DNA from: Wenzhouxiangella sediminis
Lineage (GTDB): Bacteria > Pseudomonadota > Gammaproteobacteria > Xanthomonadales > Wenzhouxiangellaceae
Direction: 5' to 3'
NCBI RefSeq assembly: GCF_003410055.1
Contig: NZ_QUZK01000033.1
Coordinates: 1 to 64,000, forward strand
Length of the DNA stretch: 64,000 nucleotides
In this document: positions 20,472-34,338 of the stretch, piece by piece
Layout of the letters: every line of letters begins with the position of its first letter
Position numbering within the stretch: the stretch's first letter is position 1
Notes under the pieces: generated by a model
Told to the model about the DNA's origin: nothing
What the model saw: only the letters and a program-made list of their open reading frames with translations
The model's database searches: none
Position numbers and translations under genes: made by a program

Positions 20472-21742
20472 ATGGGGCCGAGGACGACAAGCACTGACAA
20501 GCAAGAGGGTGGCAAGCAGGTGAGCAGCGATTCCGGGGCAGTGAGAGAGGATCGACGCAGCGGCGTGATCAGGACCGTGCTGGTTTGCGCGGCCCTGGTG
20601 GCCGTGGCCGGCGTCCTCTTGTTCGTGATCTTCAATACCGAGCCGACGGCGCGGCGCGACGGCGCGGTCCGCCAGTCGGCCTCCCTGGTCGACGTCACGC
20701 AGGGTGAGTTCGGCACATTCCGCCCGACCATCGAGGCCATGGGCACCGTCCGTCCCGCCAGGGAAATCTCGCTCGGCGCGCGCGTGAGCGGCGAAATCGT
20801 CGAAATCGGCAATTCTTTCGTCCCGGGCGGCTATGTCGATGCCGGCGAAGTGCTGGTCCGCATCGACGACGCCGATTACCAGGTCGCGCTGCAGCAAAGC
20901 CGGAGTGCGCTGGACCAGGCCATCGCCGACCTCGAGATCGAGCGCGGCGAGCGGGCCGCGGCCGAGGCCGAGTATCGCCAGTTCAATCGCGAGCTGCCGC
21001 CGGAGCGCGAGGCGCTGGTGCTGCGCGAGCCGCAGGGTCGGGCGGCGCGGGCCAATGTGGAGGCCGCGCGCGCCGACGTGCGCCAGGCGGAACTGAACGT
21101 CGATCGTGCAACCGTCGAGGCCCCGTTCGACGCCCATGTGCTCGGACGTGCGGTCAACCTGGGCTCACAGGTGAGCCCGGGCGCGGCGCTCGGTCGCCTG
21201 GTCGGCCTGGACACCTACTGGATCGAGGCGACCGTGCCGGTCGGCCAGCTGCAGTGGCTGAGCGTGCCCGACGACGACCAGCCCGGCTCCAGCGTGACCG
21301 TGCGCAACCGCAACGCCTGGCCCATGAACGTGACCCGGCAGGGCGAGGTGTTTCGCCTCATCGGCGAACTGGAAGGCGACACGCGCCTGGCGCGCATCCT
21401 GGTGGCGGTGGACGATCCGCTCGCGCGCGAAACCGAAGAAGACCTGCCCCGGCTGATGCTCGGCGAATACGTCGAGTGCCGCATCGAGGGGCGCGAGCTC
21501 AGCGACGTCGTGCGCCTGAATCGGGACTACATCCGCGAGAACGACACCGTCTGGTTGATGGTGGACCAGCGCCTGGTGATCCAGCCGGTGTCCATCCTGT
21601 TCGAGGACGAGCGCTACGCCTATATCGACGAAGGTCTGACCGCCGAAGACCGAGTGGTGACCACGCGCCTGGCGACCGTACAGGAGGGCCTGCGCCTGCG
21701 CGTGGATACCGACGGTGACGCCGCCGGGGAGGACATCGACGC

Positions 21743-21746
<4 letters not shown>
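20472..21746 (+). CDS. RND efflux periplasmic adaptor subunit
   Basis: A 424-residue membrane-fusion protein: one N-terminal anchor ([20 protein letters not shown]), a barrel-sandwich half ([20 protein letters not shown]), an alpha-hairpin (about 140-200), the second lipoyl half ([16 protein letters not shown]) and a beta-barrel. It connects the RND pump to an outer-membrane channel. A GTG at 20520 is an alternative start and would remove only the polar tail. Its stop overlaps the permease start (ATGA). No outer-membrane factor gene is nearby, so TolC-type protein must come from elsewhere. Confidence 0.93.
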
Positions 21747-24859
<3,113 letters not shown>

Positions 24860-25036: not shown

Positions 25037-26323
25037 ATGGTCCAGGAACAGCAACCGACCCCGTCATCGCTCGATCCCCAGGCCGCCGGCAAGCGCTCCG
25101 CAGGCAAGGACCCGAACAAGGGCTACATCGCCCTGCTCGGGTGGAGTCTCAATGCAATCGACGCAATGGAGCGTTTCGACCGGCGCTATGTCGTCGTCGC
25201 GCCGTCCTGGGCCACGGATTATGCCCGCGAGCACGATATTCCCTTCATCGAGTGGGATTTCGAACGGCTCAACGAGCGTTCGCTTGAAATTGCCGAGACG
25301 CTCAAGAAGGAAGGTGTCGATGTCTCCGTGCCCCTGTTCGAGGAAACGGTCGAGTGGGCCGGTGCCATCAACTCCGTGCTGATGGGGCAGCCGCGCTTGC
25401 ACGGTCAGTCCGTGCTGTTCCGCGACAAGGCCCTGATGAAGCGCCGCGCCCATCTGGGCGGTATCCGCGTCGGGGTATTCGAGGAGGCGCACGATCGAGA
25501 CGACGTCTACCGCTTCCTGCGCCGGGTCAACCAGACGCTGCTCAAGCTCGACGGCGATCCCAACGATCCGATTCACCTTAAGGCTTTCGACCAGGCCGGC
25601 TGCCTGGGCCATCGCGTCATCCGCATGCCCGAGGAGATCGAGTCCATTCCGGACACGGACTTTCCGCTGCTGATGGAATCCCATCTCGACGGCTGGGAAT
25701 TCGCCGTCGAGGCCTGGATTCACGACGGCGAGATCAAGTTCCTCAACATCTCCGAGTACGTCACGCTGGGCTATTCGGTATTCGTGCCGGCCACGCCGGA
25801 ACTGGAGAGCTGGCGGGACGCGATCACCAGGGAAGTCGAGAAGCTGATCAAGGCCTTCGACATCAAGTTCGGGCTGATCCACCCCGAGTACTTCGTGACC
25901 TCCGACGGCACAATGTATTTCGGCGAGGTCGCCTATCGGCCGCCGGGCTTCAAGGCCTTCGAGTTGATCGAACGGGCCTACGGATTCAACGCCTACCAGG
26001 CCACGGCACTGATGTTCGATCCCAAGGCGACGAAGGAAGAAGTCGACGCTTTCTTCCCCGAGCCGGTCAAGGGCGCGAAGGGCCATGCCGGTTGCTTCGG
26101 CGTGTTCCCCCGCCGGCGCGTGGTCAGTGAACTGGCGTTTCCGGACGAGACCGCCGAGCACCCCTACTTCGAAAGCCACGAGCTCTATCCCCTGGAGGAA
26201 GAGGTCGTGGCCGAACGCGAGGCCTTCGGTACCCACTGGGGCCTGGTCTACTTCTTCGGCGATGATCCGCACAAGATGCGCGACCTGCTCAAGCATCAGG
26301 AAGACCTGGACTTCTACGTCTAG
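25037..26323 (+). CDS. ATP-grasp family ligase
   Basis: A 428-residue protein with an ATP-grasp fold: a pre-ATP-grasp N-domain (about 25-125), the ATP-binding core with LLMESHLDGWEFAVEAWI, and the metal-site strand FGEVAYRPPG (the family E-x-N-x-R site, here E-V-A-Y-R). Such enzymes activate a carboxylate as an acyl phosphate and join it to an amine or thiol. AAGGAGG lies 7 bases before ATG 25037. It heads a compact operon with a predicted cysteine hydrolase and an HDAC-family deacetylase, pointing to synthesis and trimming of an amide-linked small molecule. The substrate is unknown. Confidence 0.85.
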   Translation: MVQEQQPTPSSLDPQAAGKRSAGKDPNKGYIALLGWSLNAIDAMERFDRRYVVVAPSWATDYAREHDIPFIEWDFERLNERSLEIAETLKKEGVDVSVPLFEETVEWAGAINSVLMGQPRLHGQSVLFRDKALMKRRAHLGGIRVGVFEEAHDRDDVYRFLRRVNQTLLKLDGDPNDPIHLKAFDQAGCLGHRVIRMPEEIESIPDTDFPLLMESHLDGWEFAVEAWIHDGEIKFLNISEYVTLGYSVFVPATPELESWRDAITREVEKLIKAFDIKFGLIHPEYFVTSDGTMYFGEVAYRPPGFKAFELIERAYGFNAYQATALMFDPKATKEEVDAFFPEPVKGAKGHAGCFGVFPRRRVVSELAFPDETAEHPYFESHELYPLEEEVVAEREAFGTHWGLVYFFGDDPHKMRDLLKHQEDLDFYV

Positions 26324-26332
26324 TCCATAATC

Positions 26333-28384
26333 GTGGCCACAGGCCGGGAACGGCCCCGCCCCGAGATTCCGCCCATGGAGTACCAGCGCTTGCAGGATGC
26401 ATCCCGCAACGACCCGGACCTGAACCGGGCCCAGGAACAGTTCGAGTCCGCCCTGGAAAGCGTCGCGCAGGTGACGTCGATTGCCCGGGCGGGGCATTTG
26501 CCGCGCCTGTTCAACGCCACGCTCAGGTTGCTCAAGCTGCCCGGCGGGCCCGCGCGCATTCACGGTCATGCCGGGCGATTCGACGAAGCGGGTGTTTTCG
26601 AAGGCAGTGACTGGGACCATCCCGAGCGGCTCCAGCCCGATCTCTCCCGCGGCTCGCTGACCGGGGCGGCCGACGCTGTGGCCGTCGAGGCACTGAGCCG
26701 ATTGCGCATGCTCGCGATTGCCGAAGGCTCCTACGACCACCCCGACCTGGACGCCGCGGGCGCAAGGGATTTCCTCCAGCGCAGCCTGGTGGTCAATCTG
26801 GACCTGCTGCAGCCCGACCATACCGAGGCCGGCCGGGCCGGCAAGGGGCAGCGCGAGGCCGTTCGCCAGCTGCTGTCTTTCGAGCTCGATCGGCTCGGTG
26901 GTGCAAGCGTGGTCGAGGCCCTGGTCGCCGAAGCCGATGGCATTCTCGAGCAGCGTCCCATCGACGTATCCGCCCCGCGGCAGCTGCTCGATCACGTCGA
27001 GTACCTTCTCGAAAGGGAAGACCTGCCCGACAGTGCCTCGCTGCGACGGGGGCGCCAGCTGCTGGCTGCCTGTCACGGTCCGACCGAACTGACCCGGGCG
27101 TCGGTGGCCGAATGCATGACCGGCTTCGAAGCGATGACGGCGGACGAGCGCGAGGCCGAGCTCGCTGCGCTCGGGGAGTCGATGGGCGAGACCGGACTGG
27201 CCTGTCCCGGTCACGGCGCTATCGTGGCATTGCTGGCGGACAAGGGCAGCGACCGCCAGCTCAGCCTGGCGATGGGGCTGGACGCCGTCGGCAGCGACAG
27301 CCTGGATGCATTCAACCAGTTGGTGCGGGCCCTGATACGCGAAGCGGTCGGCCCGGCAACTGCCCAGTGCCTTGTCGGATTGAGCAACCTGCTGGACCGG
27401 GGAACGCTGTTCTTCCCGCCTGTGCCCGGAGCGCTGTGGCGACTGACCAGGCTCGAACCCCTGCCCGAGGTCTCCGCGCACCTGCGCGAGGAGTTCGGAC
27501 ACGCCGACCCGCCGTCCGGGCACAGTCTTTTGCTGGCCGGCGTGATCAGCGTGCTCGGCCTGCCGCTGGGCGTCGGCCAGGGCAACAATCCCACCTGCCA
27601 GTCTGCGAGGGCCATCAGCCTGTGGGCACAGGTCGACCCGGGTTTCCTGCTCGAAATGGTGACCTGGGCGGCGCGCGACAACGAAATCGACCTGCACTTC
27701 GAAGGCGACCTGATCCGCTCGAGCGAATTGACCGAAGGCCTGATCGAGGATTTCCATACCGATCTCGATACCGTCTCGCTCGTGCTCGTGCCGCACCTGG
27801 ACAAGATCTACTGGGAAATGGGTCGGCGCATCGTCGGCCGCGGCGAGGACGGGCACCGCTGGATCAATCCCGAGTTCCACGGCTGGTGGGTCAATCGGGG
27901 GTTTGCCACGACCATCGACTACGCCACCGGCGCAGTCGCGGATTTCGCGGGCTTCATCCGGCAGTTCCACGCTGCGTATCACCCCGACTTCAACGACGGC
28001 GCCGAACTGATCTATCCCCAGCCGGCCGGCATCGTCGCGACCGACCCTTTCGGCAACTACGTGGGCCTGCACGCGATCGCCATCCAGCGCGTCGAGCTCG
28101 ACGACGAAGGCGTGATGCGGGTCTACTTCTACAATCCCAACAACGAGGGCCGGCAGGACTGGGGGCAGGAGATCGTCACCTCCACGCGCGGTCGCGGCGA
28201 GATACCCGGCGAGTCGTCGCTGCCCTTCGAGCAGTTCTGTGCGCGCCTGTACGTCTTTCATTACAACGAGCGTGAGCTGGGCGATCCGCTGGCCGTACCG
28301 GACGATTCGGTCGAGTCGATCGCGCGAATGGTTCGTGAAAGCTGGGCCCGCGAACGGGCCTGGCACGAAGTGGTTACCCGCTGA
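26333..28384 (+). CDS. Unknown protein with predicted papain-like cysteine hydrolase domain
   Basis: About 683 residues from GTG 26333 (an ATG at 26375 would remove 14). I recognise no family over the helical N-terminal 400 residues. The C-terminal part shows an order of residues expected for a papain-like hydrolase: Cys422 at a helix start (GNNPTCQSARAISLWA), His580 in a hydrophobic strand (VGLHAIAIQRVEL) and Asn601 in the following strand (VYFYNPNNEG). A Trp-rich FHGWWVNRGF motif lies between. This assignment is inference from motif order. The gene starts 9 bases after the ATP-grasp gene and its stop overlaps the deacetylase start (TGATG), so the three are one operon. Confidence 0.65.
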   Translation: MATGRERPRPEIPPMEYQRLQDASRNDPDLNRAQEQFESALESVAQVTSIARAGHLPRLFNATLRLLKLPGGPARIHGHAGRFDEAGVFEGSDWDHPERLQPDLSRGSLTGAADAVAVEALSRLRMLAIAEGSYDHPDLDAAGARDFLQRSLVVNLDLLQPDHTEAGRAGKGQREAVRQLLSFELDRLGGASVVEALVAEADGILEQRPIDVSAPRQLLDHVEYLLEREDLPDSASLRRGRQLLAACHGPTELTRASVAECMTGFEAMTADEREAELAALGESMGETGLACPGHGAIVALLADKGSDRQLSLAMGLDAVGSDSLDAFNQLVRALIREAVGPATAQCLVGLSNLLDRGTLFFPPVPGALWRLTRLEPLPEVSAHLREEFGHADPPSGHSLLLAGVISVLGLPLGVGQGNNPTCQSARAISLWAQVDPGFLLEMVTWAARDNEIDLHFEGDLIRSSELTEGLIEDFHTDLDTVSLVLVPHLDKIYWEMGRRIVGRGEDGHRWINPEFHGWWVNRGFATTIDYATGAVADFAGFIRQFHAAYHPDFNDGAELIYPQPAGIVATDPFGNYVGLHAIAIQRVELDDEGVMRVYFYNPNNEGRQDWGQEIVTSTRGRGEIPGESSLPFEQFCARLYVFHYNERELGDPLAVPDDSVESIARMVRESWARERAWHEVVTR

Positions 28385-29499
28385 TGACCGCGCCGCTGGC
28401 AGTGGTCTACCACGACGAAATGCTCGAACACCGCCCGCCGGGGCTGGAGCCGGAGCTGCGCGACTACCATGCCCGCAAGTTGCGCGCGCTGCTCGGTGAA
28501 CTCGTCGTTTCCGGCCCCTGGAAACATCCGGAGCGGCCCGAGCGCCTGTCGGACCTGGTCGAGCACGTCCGTGGCATCGACGATGGCCGCACCCTCTGGA
28601 TCGAACCCCCGCGCGCCGACGACGAAGCCCTTCTGCGCGCGCACACACCGGGCCATCTGAAGCATCTGGCCCGATTGCGCGGCAAGACGCGCATGCTGTC
28701 CCTGGACACCACGGCCGTCTCACCCGGCAGCATCGACGCCGCTTATCGCGCCGCGGGCGCGGCCATGACGGCCGTCGACACTGTGGTCGAAGGCAGGGCG
28801 AAAAGTGCCTTCGCCCTCGTGCGTCCGCCCGGGCACCATGCCCGTGCCGCGCATTTTCGCGGCTTCTGCCTGCTCAACAATGTGGCCGTCGCCGCCCGTC
28901 ACGCCCGCGCCGCCCACGGCCTCGAGCGCGTGCTGATCATCGATTGGGATGTACACCACGGGGACGGCACGGAGTCGATCTTCGAGTCCGATCCCGATGT
29001 CCTGTTCTTCGACCTTCATCGCGCCGCGCCCTACTACCCCGGCAGCGGTGCTCTCGAAAACACGGGTCGGGGCAGGGGGCGGGGCACGACCCTGAACGTC
29101 CCGCTACCCGAAGGCGCGGGGGACCAGGCCGTGCTGCGCGCCTTCGACGAGATCCTGGAACCGGCCGCGCGACGATTCCGGCCGGACCTGATCCTGGTCT
29201 CGGCCGGATTCGACGGCACGCGTGAGCACCTGGCCTGCCGCTGGAGTACGGCCGTCTATGCGCACTTGACGCGGCGGCTGCTCCGCCTGGCCGATGAACT
29301 CTGCCGGGGCCGCCTGGCGATGGTGCTCGAAGGCGGCTACCACATCGACCCCATGCGCCGCGCCCTGGAGCAGTGCCTGTTCACGCTGGTCGCCCCCGAC
29401 CGCGAACTTCCCCCGGTGCAGCGGAATCGAACCGGCTTGCCCGCGGTGGACCGCGCACGCGATTTCTTCGTTGAATCCGGTCTGCTCGGTCGCCGCTGA
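28384..29499 (+). CDS. Histone-deacetylase-family (acetylpolyamine amidohydrolase-like) protein
   Basis: A 371-residue zinc deacetylase. Catalytic features are intact: RPPGHHA with His151/His152, zinc ligands Asp189 and His191 in DWDVHHGDGT, Asp277 in SAGFD, and Tyr319 in EGGYH. Bacterial members deacetylate acetylpolyamines or other N-acetyl amines. The segment after SAGFD (GTREHLACRW) departs from the usual H/R-DPLG. Translationally coupled to the predicted cysteine hydrolase, it is the last gene of the ATP-grasp operon. Confidence 0.92.
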   Translation: MTAPLAVVYHDEMLEHRPPGLEPELRDYHARKLRALLGELVVSGPWKHPERPERLSDLVEHVRGIDDGRTLWIEPPRADDEALLRAHTPGHLKHLARLRGKTRMLSLDTTAVSPGSIDAAYRAAGAAMTAVDTVVEGRAKSAFALVRPPGHHARAAHFRGFCLLNNVAVAARHARAAHGLERVLIIDWDVHHGDGTESIFESDPDVLFFDLHRAAPYYPGSGALENTGRGRGRGTTLNVPLPEGAGDQAVLRAFDEILEPAARRFRPDLILVSAGFDGTREHLACRWSTAVYAHLTRRLLRLADELCRGRLAMVLEGGYHIDPMRRALEQCLFTLVAPDRELPPVQRNRTGLPAVDRARDFFVESGLLGRR

Positions 29500-29909: not shown

Positions 29910-30092
29910 TTCGTTCCCCTTGGCGTGGATCCGCGGGCGAGCCTAGCAAAGGTCGGTGATTTCGCTCAAACGCCGCCGCGATACCGGCTTGGGTTTGCCT
30001 GCGCCACCCGATAAGATGCCGGTACCGATACGCCATCGACATTGCAGGGGACGCCACATGAACGAAGTGCGGACGCGCGGGGTGACGTCCTG

Positions 30093-30773
30093 ATGGGGCC
30101 GAGGCGCAGCCGGGCCTTGACGCGCCTGGACACATTCACGGACGCGGCGTTTGCGTTTGCGGTGACCATGCTCGCCATCTCGATCGACGAGATCCCCGGG
30201 TCGTATCCGGAACTGATCGAGGCGCTCAAGGGCGCGCCCGCCTTCATCGTCAGCTTCGCCATGCTGCTGCTGTACTGGCGCGCACACCAGACCTGGAGCG
30301 AGCGTTTCGGCCTTGACGACCTGCCGTCCGTGTTGCTGACCGCGGCACTGATCGTCGTCGTGATGATCTACGTCTACCCCTTGAAGATCATGTTCGGTGC
30401 CGGATTGAGCTCGGTCAGCGGCGGTTGGTTGCCTTCCAACTTCGACATCGAAACGCACTACCGATTCAGGGTGGTCGCGACGATCTTCAGCATCGGCTTT
30501 GCCTGCCTCAGCGGCATCATCGCCGCGTTGTACCTGCACGCCTGGCGAAAGCGCTCAGAGCTGGAGATGTCGGCACCGGAGGCCTTCGACACGGCGGCCG
30601 AGAGCCTGGCCTGGGCCATCGTGGCCGGCTGGGGTGGGCTGTCGATCCTGTTGGCATGGACCCTGAACGCCGACTGGTTGCCCCTGGCGGTGTGGATCTA
30701 CTGCGGCCTTGCCGTGTTCGGCCCCGCCTTTGATTTCTTCCAGCGAAGGGTGGCGAGAAAGCGTTTCGCTTGA
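30093..30773 (+). CDS. TMEM175-like (DUF1211) membrane protein
   Basis: A 226-residue, roughly six-helix membrane protein. The first helix carries RLDTFTDAAFAFAVTMLAIS, close to the R-x-x-x-F-S/T-D signature of TMEM175 potassium channels, followed by LLYWRAHQTW in helix 3. Bacterial TMEM175 proteins are potassium-selective channels with one six-helix repeat per subunit. GGGGTGA lies upstream of ATG 30093. A remnant of a response-regulator gene lies just after its stop. Confidence 0.8.
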   Translation: MGPRRSRALTRLDTFTDAAFAFAVTMLAISIDEIPGSYPELIEALKGAPAFIVSFAMLLLYWRAHQTWSERFGLDDLPSVLLTAALIVVVMIYVYPLKIMFGAGLSSVSGGWLPSNFDIETHYRFRVVATIFSIGFACLSGIIAALYLHAWRKRSELEMSAPEAFDTAAESLAWAIVAGWGGLSILLAWTLNADWLPLAVWIYCGLAVFGPAFDFFQRRVARKRFA

Positions 30774-32629: not shown

Positions 32630-33232
32630 CTACAGCCAGCCCTGGTCGCGGGCGATGCGGTAGGCCTCGGTGCGATTGTCGGCCTGCAGCTTGCCGATGG
32701 CTTCCGACAGGTAGTTGCGCACCGTGCCCTCGGCCAGGTGCAGGCGCTGGCCGATCTCGGCGTTGCCCAGGCCTTCGCCCGCCAGCCTGAGCACCTGACG
32801 CTCGCGGTCGGTGAGCGGGTCGCTGCTGTCGAAGGCGGTCAGCGCCAGTTCGGGATCGATCACCCGCTGGCCTGCGTGGATGCGGCGAATGGCGTCGGCC
32901 AACTGTTCGGCCGGCGTTTCCTTGAGCAGGTAACCGCGCACGCCGGCTTCGAGCGCGCGCCTCAGATAGCCGGGTCGCGCGAAGGTGGTCAGGATGGCCA
33001 CAGCGGTGCCGGGCGCGTTGCCGCGCGCCCAGTCGGCCAGGTCCAGGCCGGTGCTGCCCGGCATCTCGATGTCGGTCAGCAGCAGGTCGGGTTTCTCGGA
33101 CTCGACCAGGCCACGAGCCTCGTCGCCGCTGGTGGCGCGCCCGACCACCTCGATGTCGTCCTCGAGCTCGAGCAGTGAGGCGAGTGCGCCCAGCAAAAGG
33201 GTCTGGTCTTCGGCGAGTACGAGTCGGATCAT
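32630..33232 (-). CDS. NarL/DesR-type response regulator
   Basis: A 200-residue two-domain regulator: a receiver domain with acidic pocket (LAEDQ), phospho-acceptor Asp54 in LLTDIEMPG and Lys in YLLKETPA, then a LuxR-type HTH (LTDRERQVLRLAGEGLGNAEI). Its start overlaps the kinase stop by 4 bases (ATGA), so the two form a cognate pair. Sequence flavour (AIRRIHAGQRVIDPELA) is that of DesR/LiaR-like regulators. Confidence 0.95.
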   Translation of the reverse strand: MIRLVLAEDQTLLLGALASLLELEDDIEVVGRATSGDEARGLVESEKPDLLLTDIEMPGSTGLDLADWARGNAPGTAVAILTTFARPGYLRRALEAGVRGYLLKETPAEQLADAIRRIHAGQRVIDPELALTAFDSSDPLTDRERQVLRLAGEGLGNAEIGQRLHLAEGTVRNYLSEAIGKLQADNRTEAYRIARDQGWL

Positions 33233-34338
33233 GCGGCCTCCAGTGGTAAGCGGGCGCTCAGGCTGGACGGGCCGTCGGATCCGATGTCGAGCCGGCCGCC
33301 GAGGGATTCGATGCGCGCGCGCATGCCCTGGATGCCGTTGCCGTCCATGCGGATGCTGCCGCCGCCGTCGTCGTCGACCGACAGGTTCAGTTCACCCTGT
33401 GAAGCTTCGAGCCGGATGCGGCAGCGGCGGGCCTGCGAGTGACGAATGACGTTGGTGACCGCCTCGCGGATGACCAGGGCCAGCATGCCCTGGGTCTGTG
33501 CGGGCAGCTCGACGACCCCGTCGACCTCGATGACCGGGTCGATGTCGGCCGCGCGCAGGCTCAGGCGCATGTGTTCGAGGGTTTCGGCAAGGGTCTGCCG
33601 CTGGTAGCCGCTGATGGCCTCGCGTACGTCGGCCAGTGCCTTGCGGGCGCTCTCGCCCATGGAGCGGATCTCCTCGCGCGCCTTGTCGCCGTCGCGCTCG
33701 ACCAGGCGCTCGGCCAGCTCGCTCTTGACCGCGATCATCGACAGGGTGTGGCCGAGCACGTCGTGCAGGTCGCGCGCGATGCGCTCGCGCTCGGCCACGC
33801 GAGCCAGGCGCTTGATCTCTGCCTGGCTGAGCTTGAGCTCGGCGTTCTTGCGCCCCTGTTCGGCGAAGAAGATATTGGTCAGGCCGATAATGATGCTGAT
33901 GAAAACGCCCGGCAGCCAGTAGAAGGGTTCGGGCCGGGCCAGGGGCGCGATCAGGCCCGCGAAGGCGGCCACGCCGAGGACGACCCAGACCGATCGTCTC
34001 GGTGGCCCCACCAGGTGGGCAAAGGCGGCGGCGTAGATGAACAGCACGCTGGCGCCGGCGTTGGCCCAGCTCCAGGCCGCGGCCATCGCGGTGATGGCGA
34101 CGATGTGCGCCAGCGCCGTGCGGCGGGTCCGGCTCCGGAACGCGCTGAAGTACAGGACGAGGAAAACGGCAATGGTCGCCATGCCCAGGGTCATCTCGAC
34201 CGGGCCGACAGGGCGGAAGTACCACTCGACGAAGAAGAAGCTCAGATAGACCAGCCAGACGTAGGCCGTCCAGCCCTGGCCGCTTTCGGGGGGCACCAGG
34301 GACTCGTGAATTCTCTTGAGGCGTTGTCGGGCGCTCAT
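33229..34338 (-). CDS. DesK/LiaS-type sensor histidine kinase
   Basis: A 369-residue kinase with an N-terminal block of about five membrane helices (residues 25-160), a short coiled linker, the HisKA_3 motif ERIARDLHDVLGHTLSMIAV, and an HATPase domain (REAVTNVIRHSQARRCRI, DDGGGS, GNGIQGMRARIESLGG). It has no large extracellular sensor, as in DesK/LiaS-type intramembrane-sensing kinases. It is the partner of the overlapping response regulator and lies downstream of an ABC-2 exporter and an amidohydrolase gene on the same strand. Confidence 0.94.
   Translation of the reverse strand: MSARQRLKRIHESLVPPESGQGWTAYVWLVYLSFFFVEWYFRPVGPVEMTLGMATIAVFLVLYFSAFRSRTRRTALAHIVAITAMAAAWSWANAGASVLFIYAAAFAHLVGPPRRSVWVVLGVAAFAGLIAPLARPEPFYWLPGVFISIIIGLTNIFFAEQGRKNAELKLSQAEIKRLARVAERERIARDLHDVLGHTLSMIAVKSELAERLVERDGDKAREEIRSMGESARKALADVREAISGYQRQTLAETLEHMRLSLRAADIDPVIEVDGVVELPAQTQGMLALVIREAVTNVIRHSQARRCRIRLEASQGELNLSVDDDGGGSIRMDGNGIQGMRARIESLGGRLDIGSDGPSSLSARLPLEAA

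Follow-up and report, generated by a model that had tools for sequence, protein, structure and literature searches.

Co-inheritance of an ATP-grasp ligase, a papain-fold protein and an HDAC-type deacetylase in Wenzhouxiangella sediminis and other bacteria

Three adjacent genes of Wenzhouxiangella sediminis are predicted to encode a ligase that would make an amide bond, a thiol enzyme that would cut or transfer one and a deacetylase. Do they form one system, and what would such a system act on? The stretch of DNA analysed here (the window) is 64,000 nucleotides long, positions 1 to 64,000 of contig NZ_QUZK01000033.1, and its closest named relatives are Wenzhouxiangella. The three genes, called A, B and C, are real and intact and lie on the + strand:

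25037..26323, + strand: gene A, putative ATP-grasp carboxylate-amine ligase (ATG 25037 to TAG 26323, 428 amino acids)
26375..28384, + strand: gene B, new family with a predicted papain fold (669 amino acids from the conserved ATG; 683 if GTG 26333 is the start)
28384..29499, + strand: gene C, HDAC-type zinc deacetylase (ATG 28384 to TGA 29499, 371 amino acids)

We propose, at a probability of roughly 0.55, that A and B work as halves of a single obligate enzyme system, which is probably cytosolic, and that C is its dedicated accessory; the three would ligate, cleave or transfer, and deacetylate. A first-pass annotation of the sequence had described three adjacent genes with a TGATG overlap between B and C. 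These coordinates were confirmed, the TGA stop of B sharing one base with the ATG of C at 28384. The 9-base gap that it gave between A and B did not hold, since this gap needs GTG 26333. B probably starts at ATG 26375, which makes the gap 51 bases, because conservation in the alignment of relatives begins at that Met, because the first start codons of six close relatives (L004-L009; L and G numbers are our handles for loci and genomes) lie there or at most two codons off, and because L003 has a TAA upstream of that position. Promoter and terminator scans found none, with no more hits than in shuffled sequences.

Inheritance of the three genes

Three genome samples were searched: relatives of the window (61 genomes including its own, 15 with B), the class (369 genomes including its own) and a second family (121 genomes). 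A few genomes are shared among them. In the class sample, B was detected in 13 of 369 genomes (E ≤1e-3), and A was detected in the same 13 (E ≤1e-60). In the second family, 74 of 121 genomes had a B match and 73 of those 74 had A. The 74th, G531, holds only a 61-residue B remnant (G531:C78:32137-32319) and no A, which fits joint loss of the pair. Fisher tests of this co-occurrence, with relatedness ignored, gave 3e-24 for the class and 5e-33 for the second family. Among the relatives, all 15 B loci had A as a neighbour, and a contig end cuts A in two of them.

A larger collection was also used, in which at least 582 of 595 pattern-matched stretches encode a B relative. Among its best 80 loci, A was present within the fetched DNA in 67, directly upstream on the same strand in 63 of them and otherwise arranged in four. 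Four genomes carry both genes although the pair is split: about 55 kb apart in G345, on different contigs in G470 and more than 1 Mb apart in G492 and G511. In G511 (locus L079), a decayed scrap of A lies beside B and an intact A lies about 2 Mb away. A and B are thus an obligate pair, because they are found in the same genomes even when the genes are far apart. The functional link suggested by the first-pass annotation was supported. Of the two findings that the annotation had named as refuting it, neither was made: the gene set extends beyond one species, and the model of B has a hydrolase fold.

Genes of the HDAC type are common, with 198 of the 369 class genomes matching C at E ≤1e-30. The 11 best matches to C outside its own genome (273-356 bits) were all in genomes with A and B, and they aligned from residue 5-7. 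The best match in a class genome lacking B reached 244 bits, and the listed matches of this kind almost all begin no earlier than residue 38, apart from those of G271 (from residue 4, 187 bits) and G263 (from residue 29). By these features, a C-type deacetylase was present in 12 of the 13 class genomes with A and B (the exception being G219) and in 0 of the 356 others. In the second family, it was found in 38 of the 73 genomes with A and B, a partial copy in G446 included, and in 0 of 48 others (E ≤1e-62), namely the 47 without B and G531. Among the relatives (E ≤1e-40), 9 of 15 B-positive and 0 of 46 B-lacking genomes had it; a tenth copy, in G009, is cut by a contig end. Among 28 genomes reached via B loci, 12 of the 16 from outside the actinobacteria had it, against none of the 12 actinobacterial genomes. 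C is therefore an exclusive accessory of A+B genomes in the samples examined. The earlier grouping of the three genes as one set held as far as their link is concerned, but C is not part of the core, being present in only some of the genomes with A and B.

C is often unlinked from the pair. In 8 of the 12 class genomes it lies 41 kb to more than 700 kb away or on another contig. Where the genes are linked, the orders A-B-C (Wenzhouxiangella, G239), B-C-A (G318) and B-A-C (G404) were observed; in L086 the order is A-B-C, with a contig end interrupting it. A tree of 60 HDACs was built without identical rows and without proteins below 290 residues, and a branch with support 100/99 separated its 33 C-type rows from the rest. 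Because likeness to C decided which rows were labelled C-type, the tree serves to show that these rows group together; the independent fact is their distribution among genomes. C-type matches begin at query residue 1-13 and the other extracted HDACs at residue 38 or later, except L248. The hallmark of the clade is a segment near the start of the protein:

28423..28524, + strand: N-terminal insertion of C at the L1 position, between the first strand and the HPE motif

Several loci show other arrangements. Decayed A fragments lie directly upstream of an intact B in L079 (7837-7956) and L075 (7646-7956). Two adjoining B genes on opposite strands were seen in L022 (3952-5934 and 6190-7512), a Nitrococcus metagenome-assembled genome (MAG), and in the second family at G515:C2 92749-97185, with A beside them. 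L032 (genome G572), from a MAG labelled Candidatus Sumerlaeota, has A, B and a C-type HDAC, by transfer or on a mis-binned contig. Candidate A-B fusions were rejected in L045 and L083, where the long B frames were judged from their coordinates to be wrong-frame extensions in GC-rich DNA; no fusion is claimed for these loci or for L028.

Predicted chemistry of the three proteins

Invariant residues were read from alignments with minimum hit lengths of 380 (A), 600 (B) and 300 (C) residues; rows with stops or X were left out, as were C hits below 240 bits or starting after residue 13. The first-pass annotation had named A an ATP-grasp ligase and C an HDAC-type deacetylase, and both assignments were supported. 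A matched PF13535 (ATP-grasp_4) at E 2.1e-5 and 24.6 bits, slightly below the cut-off of 27. The same family was matched by 14 of 14 aligned A members at E ≤0.001, the best at 6e-8. Against solved structures, the A profile matched the L-amino acid ligases 4wd3 (RizA-type, E 3e-6) and 3vot (BL00235, E 6e-6); 4dim, titled phosphoribosylglycinamide synthetase, scored slightly higher than both. K182, E284, E297 and R301 are invariant in 127 rows. E284 and E297 align with the glutamates of HLEIY and GEIA in 4wd3 and are presumably the conserved acidic Mg-binding residues of the ATP-grasp C-terminal lobe. By its sequence, A belongs to the ATP-grasp amide ligase superfamily, and it would be expected to form an amide at the expense of ATP.

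B had been described as a protein without a recognised family that might be a papain-like hydrolase. No family match was found in Pfam, NCBIfam, PADLOC or PHROGs, and no PDB chain matched the B domain profile at E ≤5. The calpain family PF00648 (Peptidase_C2) was not found in 49 B members at E ≤1; in 143 class genomes it likewise had no match, but control genomes gave none either. Structure prediction supported the second part of the description and divided B into two regions:

26375..27514, + strand: N-terminal all-helical, repeat-like region of B (about residues 1-380), from the AlphaFold2 model
27515..28381, + strand: predicted C-terminal papain-like catalytic domain of B (about residues 381-669), from a model of residues 340-669
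27578..27580, + strand: codon of Gln402, predicted oxyanion-hole Gln (416 from the GTG)
27596..27598, + strand: codon of Cys408, predicted nucleophile (422 from the GTG)
28070..28072, + strand: codon of His566, predicted general base (580 from the GTG)
28133..28135, + strand: codon of Asn587, predicted third triad residue (601 from the GTG)

In the AlphaFold2 model of whole B (15 sequences), 26 of 38 ten-residue blocks of the N-terminal region had a predicted local distance difference test score (pLDDT) above 85, and the C-terminal part was less certain. The N-terminal region gave weak ARM/HEAT/PUF-like structural matches only. When the last 330 residues (340-669) were modelled alone with 49 sequences, pLDDT reached 88.3 and the predicted template modelling score (pTM) 0.87. 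In VIA-align, 49 of the 50 entries listed for this model are papain-fold proteins, by title or general knowledge; 8ssk, a contact-dependent inhibition (CDI) toxin, was left unassigned. The best matches were calpain-3 cores, at Z 8.2 with a root-mean-square deviation of 4.2 Å over 210 residues. The program warns that a Z near 8 may reflect a common arrangement; the list for B was nevertheless uniform. In Foldseek, 47 of the 50 rows listed were papain-fold enzymes, with a best E of 6.6e-3 and none at 0.001. The domain alone gave a clearer picture than whole B, for which Foldseek ranked helical-repeat proteins highest and staphopain matched only weakly, and VIA-align found calpain cores at Z 5.9.

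Gln402, Cys408, His566 and Asn587 are invariant in 136 rows, that is, 135 distinct full-length locus proteins (the window copy included) and the reference. Gln402 stands six residues before Cys408, and Gln, Cys, His, Asn is the order expected in papain-like enzymes. These residues give sequence support that is independent of the fold model. In the model, then, the C-terminal domain of B has a papain-like (clan CA) fold, and it is predicted to cleave a peptide or amide.

With A and B in hand, a pathway for a small peptide-like metabolite can be considered, in which B would be a transpeptidase or tailoring acyltransferase and would not reverse A. L-amino acid ligases related to A make dipeptides, and 2bu3, presumably a phytochelatin-synthase-like transpeptidase, is among the structural matches of B (Z 6.7, 146 residues aligned). 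We consider this quite unlikely, as the genes beside A-B include no transporter or tailoring enzyme that recurs across families and the large helical domain of B would be unusual for such enzymes.

C matched PF00850 (Hist_deacetyl) at E 2e-91. H151, H152, D189, H191, D277 and Y319 are invariant in 36 rows, so that the zinc-ligand and catalytic set is intact. By comparison with HDAC8, D189 and H191 presumably act as zinc ligands:

28948..28956, + strand: zinc-ligand motif D189-V-H191 of C, with D189 and H191 invariant in 36 rows

Solved relatives of C include HDAC6, HDAC15 and bacterial HDAH. The two-domain HDAC6 entries rank first among the PDB matches only through the sum of both domains; compared domain by domain, HDAC15, bacterial HDAH and HDAC6 are similarly close to C.

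The first-pass annotation had suggested a polyamine conjugate, loosely like glutathionylspermidine, and this was not supported. Neither glutathionylspermidine-synthetase nor CHAP families were detected in A or B (Pfam, E ≤1). According to a 2024 survey (PMC11532494), polyamine specificity is tied to a PEG motif in HDAC10 and a PIS motif in bacterial ApaH. C has neither gate motif, GTREHLACR following AGFD at this position (placed by eye), and both motifs are also missing from L103 and L106. As far as these motifs can tell, the result speaks against an acetylpolyamine substrate. C does carry RPPGHH and EGGY, which the same survey links to deacetylation over long-chain deacylation and which ApaH enzymes share.

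The three protein classes also have a eukaryotic parallel, the tubulin-modifying set of tubulin tyrosine ligase, vasohibin and HDAC6. This raises a protein-modification cycle: a protein would receive an amino acid or short peptide through A and lose it again through B, and C would deacetylate lysines of that protein. In B, a helical repeat-like stretch of about 380 residues joined to a calpain-like core would suit such a role, as would HDAC6, a protein deacetylase, among the solved relatives of C. RPPGHH and EGGY in C, tied in the survey to a preference for acetyl over long acyl chains (PMC11532494), are also consistent with it. We nevertheless regard this cycle as rather doubtful. The closest relatives of A are L-amino acid ligases acting on small molecules. 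The top rank of HDAC6 rests on two summed domains, and single HDAC15, HDAH and HDAC6 domains score alike or better. Moreover, no target protein recurs beside the genes. In its fullest form, the idea would be a hitherto unseen bacterial protein-modification code with an ATP-grasp writer, a calpain-fold eraser with a repeat-domain receptor and a dedicated HDAC, by analogy with the tubulin toolkit; we consider it unlikely.

Neighbouring genes and gene history

Clustering of neighbouring genes covered the 80 loci and another 47 (40 regions plus 7 other loci), and no gene recurred beside A or B across families. Clusters present in at least 3 of the 47 loci were limited to close relatives or generic (an ABC ATPase at varying distance). 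The flanking genes scanned were mutually unrelated, including malate:quinone oxidoreductase, class II tRNA synthetase and histidinol dehydrogenase.

Beside C, GNAT acetyltransferase genes (37-54% identical) were found directly 3' in 3 of 20 regions, these three falling in two families: G229 and G336 belong to one, and G504, where only one of its two copies of C has such a gene behind it, to another:

L204 7121-7576: GNAT gene downstream of C
L205 7106-7591: GNAT gene downstream of C
L211 7164-7805: GNAT gene downstream of C

Ten other genes beside C, in seven regions, included no GNAT, so this neighbour is not general. A GNAT beside a deacetylase may form an acetylation/deacetylation pair with it and fits an action of C on an acetylated amine, but the sample is small and GNATs are common.

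In the window, two genes resembling an RND-type efflux adaptor and pump lie upstream (20472-24859, by eye), and the putative pump gene is also upstream of A in L017 and L019. Downstream are a small membrane protein like TMEM175-type channels (30042-30773) and a response-regulator/histidine-kinase pair (32630-34338), both by eye.

A mobile or anti-phage defence element was also rejected. No phage match was found, the single match lay on a Halomonas 'plasmid' record of 1.8 Mb whose annotation was unusable, and A, B and C had no PADLOC match at E ≤1 and no PHROGs match.

The distribution of A and B is patchy. In a tree of B made by a quick method, near copies left out, 13 Actinomycetota rows formed one supported group beside Oceanimonas, within gammaproteobacterial rows. 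This tree points to a transfer into Actinomycetota. Identity between the window and Actinomycetota was about 71-78% for A and 44-47% for B. Transfer and patchiness would suit a selfish or hitch-hiking A-B pair that is inherited together without shared function, C being there by coincidence. We consider this very improbable. A and B stay paired in genomes where they lie far from each other, the C-type is seen only in A+B genomes though often unlinked, and no phage and only the one 'plasmid' record were matched.

Proposed system and its relation to known systems

The analysis established the gene structure, the co-occurrence, the folds and the invariant catalytic residues, and from the last two we infer a chemistry for the proposed A-B system and its accessory C. 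A would activate a carboxylate, of an amino acid or peptide, with ATP and join it to an amine. B, as a papain-fold thiol enzyme, would cut or transfer the amide formed by A, its helical repeat-like domain holding a partner or a large substrate. C would remove an acetyl group and so free the amine that is used by A or released by B. That enzymes of these three kinds (ligase, thiol hydrolase or transferase, deacetylase) are inherited together would most simply mean one amine-containing substrate. This common substrate, its class, the directions of the steps and the cellular location are part of the proposal. The helical domain of B suggests a large substrate and the relatives of A a small one, so both a metabolite version and a protein-modification version are kept.

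Several observations weigh against the proposal. No A of at least 150 residues was found near B in 13 of the 80 loci, the rest of the genome mostly not being searched; L024 of these begins at a contig end, and L075 and L079 hold A fragments. Copy numbers are not 1:1: in the second family, two or three B matches occur in 15 of the 74 genomes, of which 12 have a single A, and five genomes have two A and one B. A looks damaged in G433 (two internal stops) and G541 (truncated). The C-type was not found in 35 of 73 second-family A+B genomes, 12 of 12 actinobacterial and 4 of 16 other B-locus genomes, 5 of 15 B-positive relatives (G009 aside) and G219. Since it is missing from many A+B genomes, C cannot be essential to the core reaction. 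The Foldseek E-values for B are weak (best 6.6e-3), and the VIA-align Z of 8.2 is moderate.

The shared inheritance of the three genes points to a so far undescribed system for making and trimming amides. The first-pass annotation had known of no named pathway for this set, and no description of it was found in the accessible part of the literature searched, the 2009 amidoligase survey lying outside it. The B family is present at hundreds of loci, yet none of the family libraries searched contains it. Every sampled genome with intact B also has the ATP-grasp ligase, and the A-B pair in turn is associated with a single HDAC clade. A bacterial HDAC subfamily thereby gains a function-linked context, in which its substrates become a testable question in cultured Halomonas, Marinobacter or Wenzhouxiangella.

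Each of the known systems shares part of this arrangement. Glutathionylspermidine synthetase/amidase, which combines ATP-grasp and CHAP domains, likewise has a ligase and a papain-fold amidase acting on one amide; A and B, in contrast, are separate proteins, and the helical domain of B and the HDAC partner are extra. Tubulin tyrosine ligase, vasohibin and HDAC6 represent the same three classes (ATP-grasp ligase, papain-related eraser, zinc deacetylase), whereas A, B and C are bacterial and the likeness is an analogy only. The L-amino acid ligases 4wd3 and 3vot fall by profile in the same ATP-grasp branch as A, and the acidic residues of the GEVA region align. A of the window differs in scoring below the Pfam cut-off, and A differs in that its partner B is always present in the samples. 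With calpain and papain-fold peptidases, B shares the predicted fold, the invariant Gln six residues before Cys, the His and the Asn; unlike calpains, it has no sequence match to Peptidase_C2 and carries a large N-terminal helical domain. C has the zinc and catalytic residues, RPPGHH and EGGY in common with the bacterial classical deacylases, for which the survey gives five clusters (PMC11532494), but the C-type forms its own group, with a distinct N-terminal insertion and no PEG or PIS gate.

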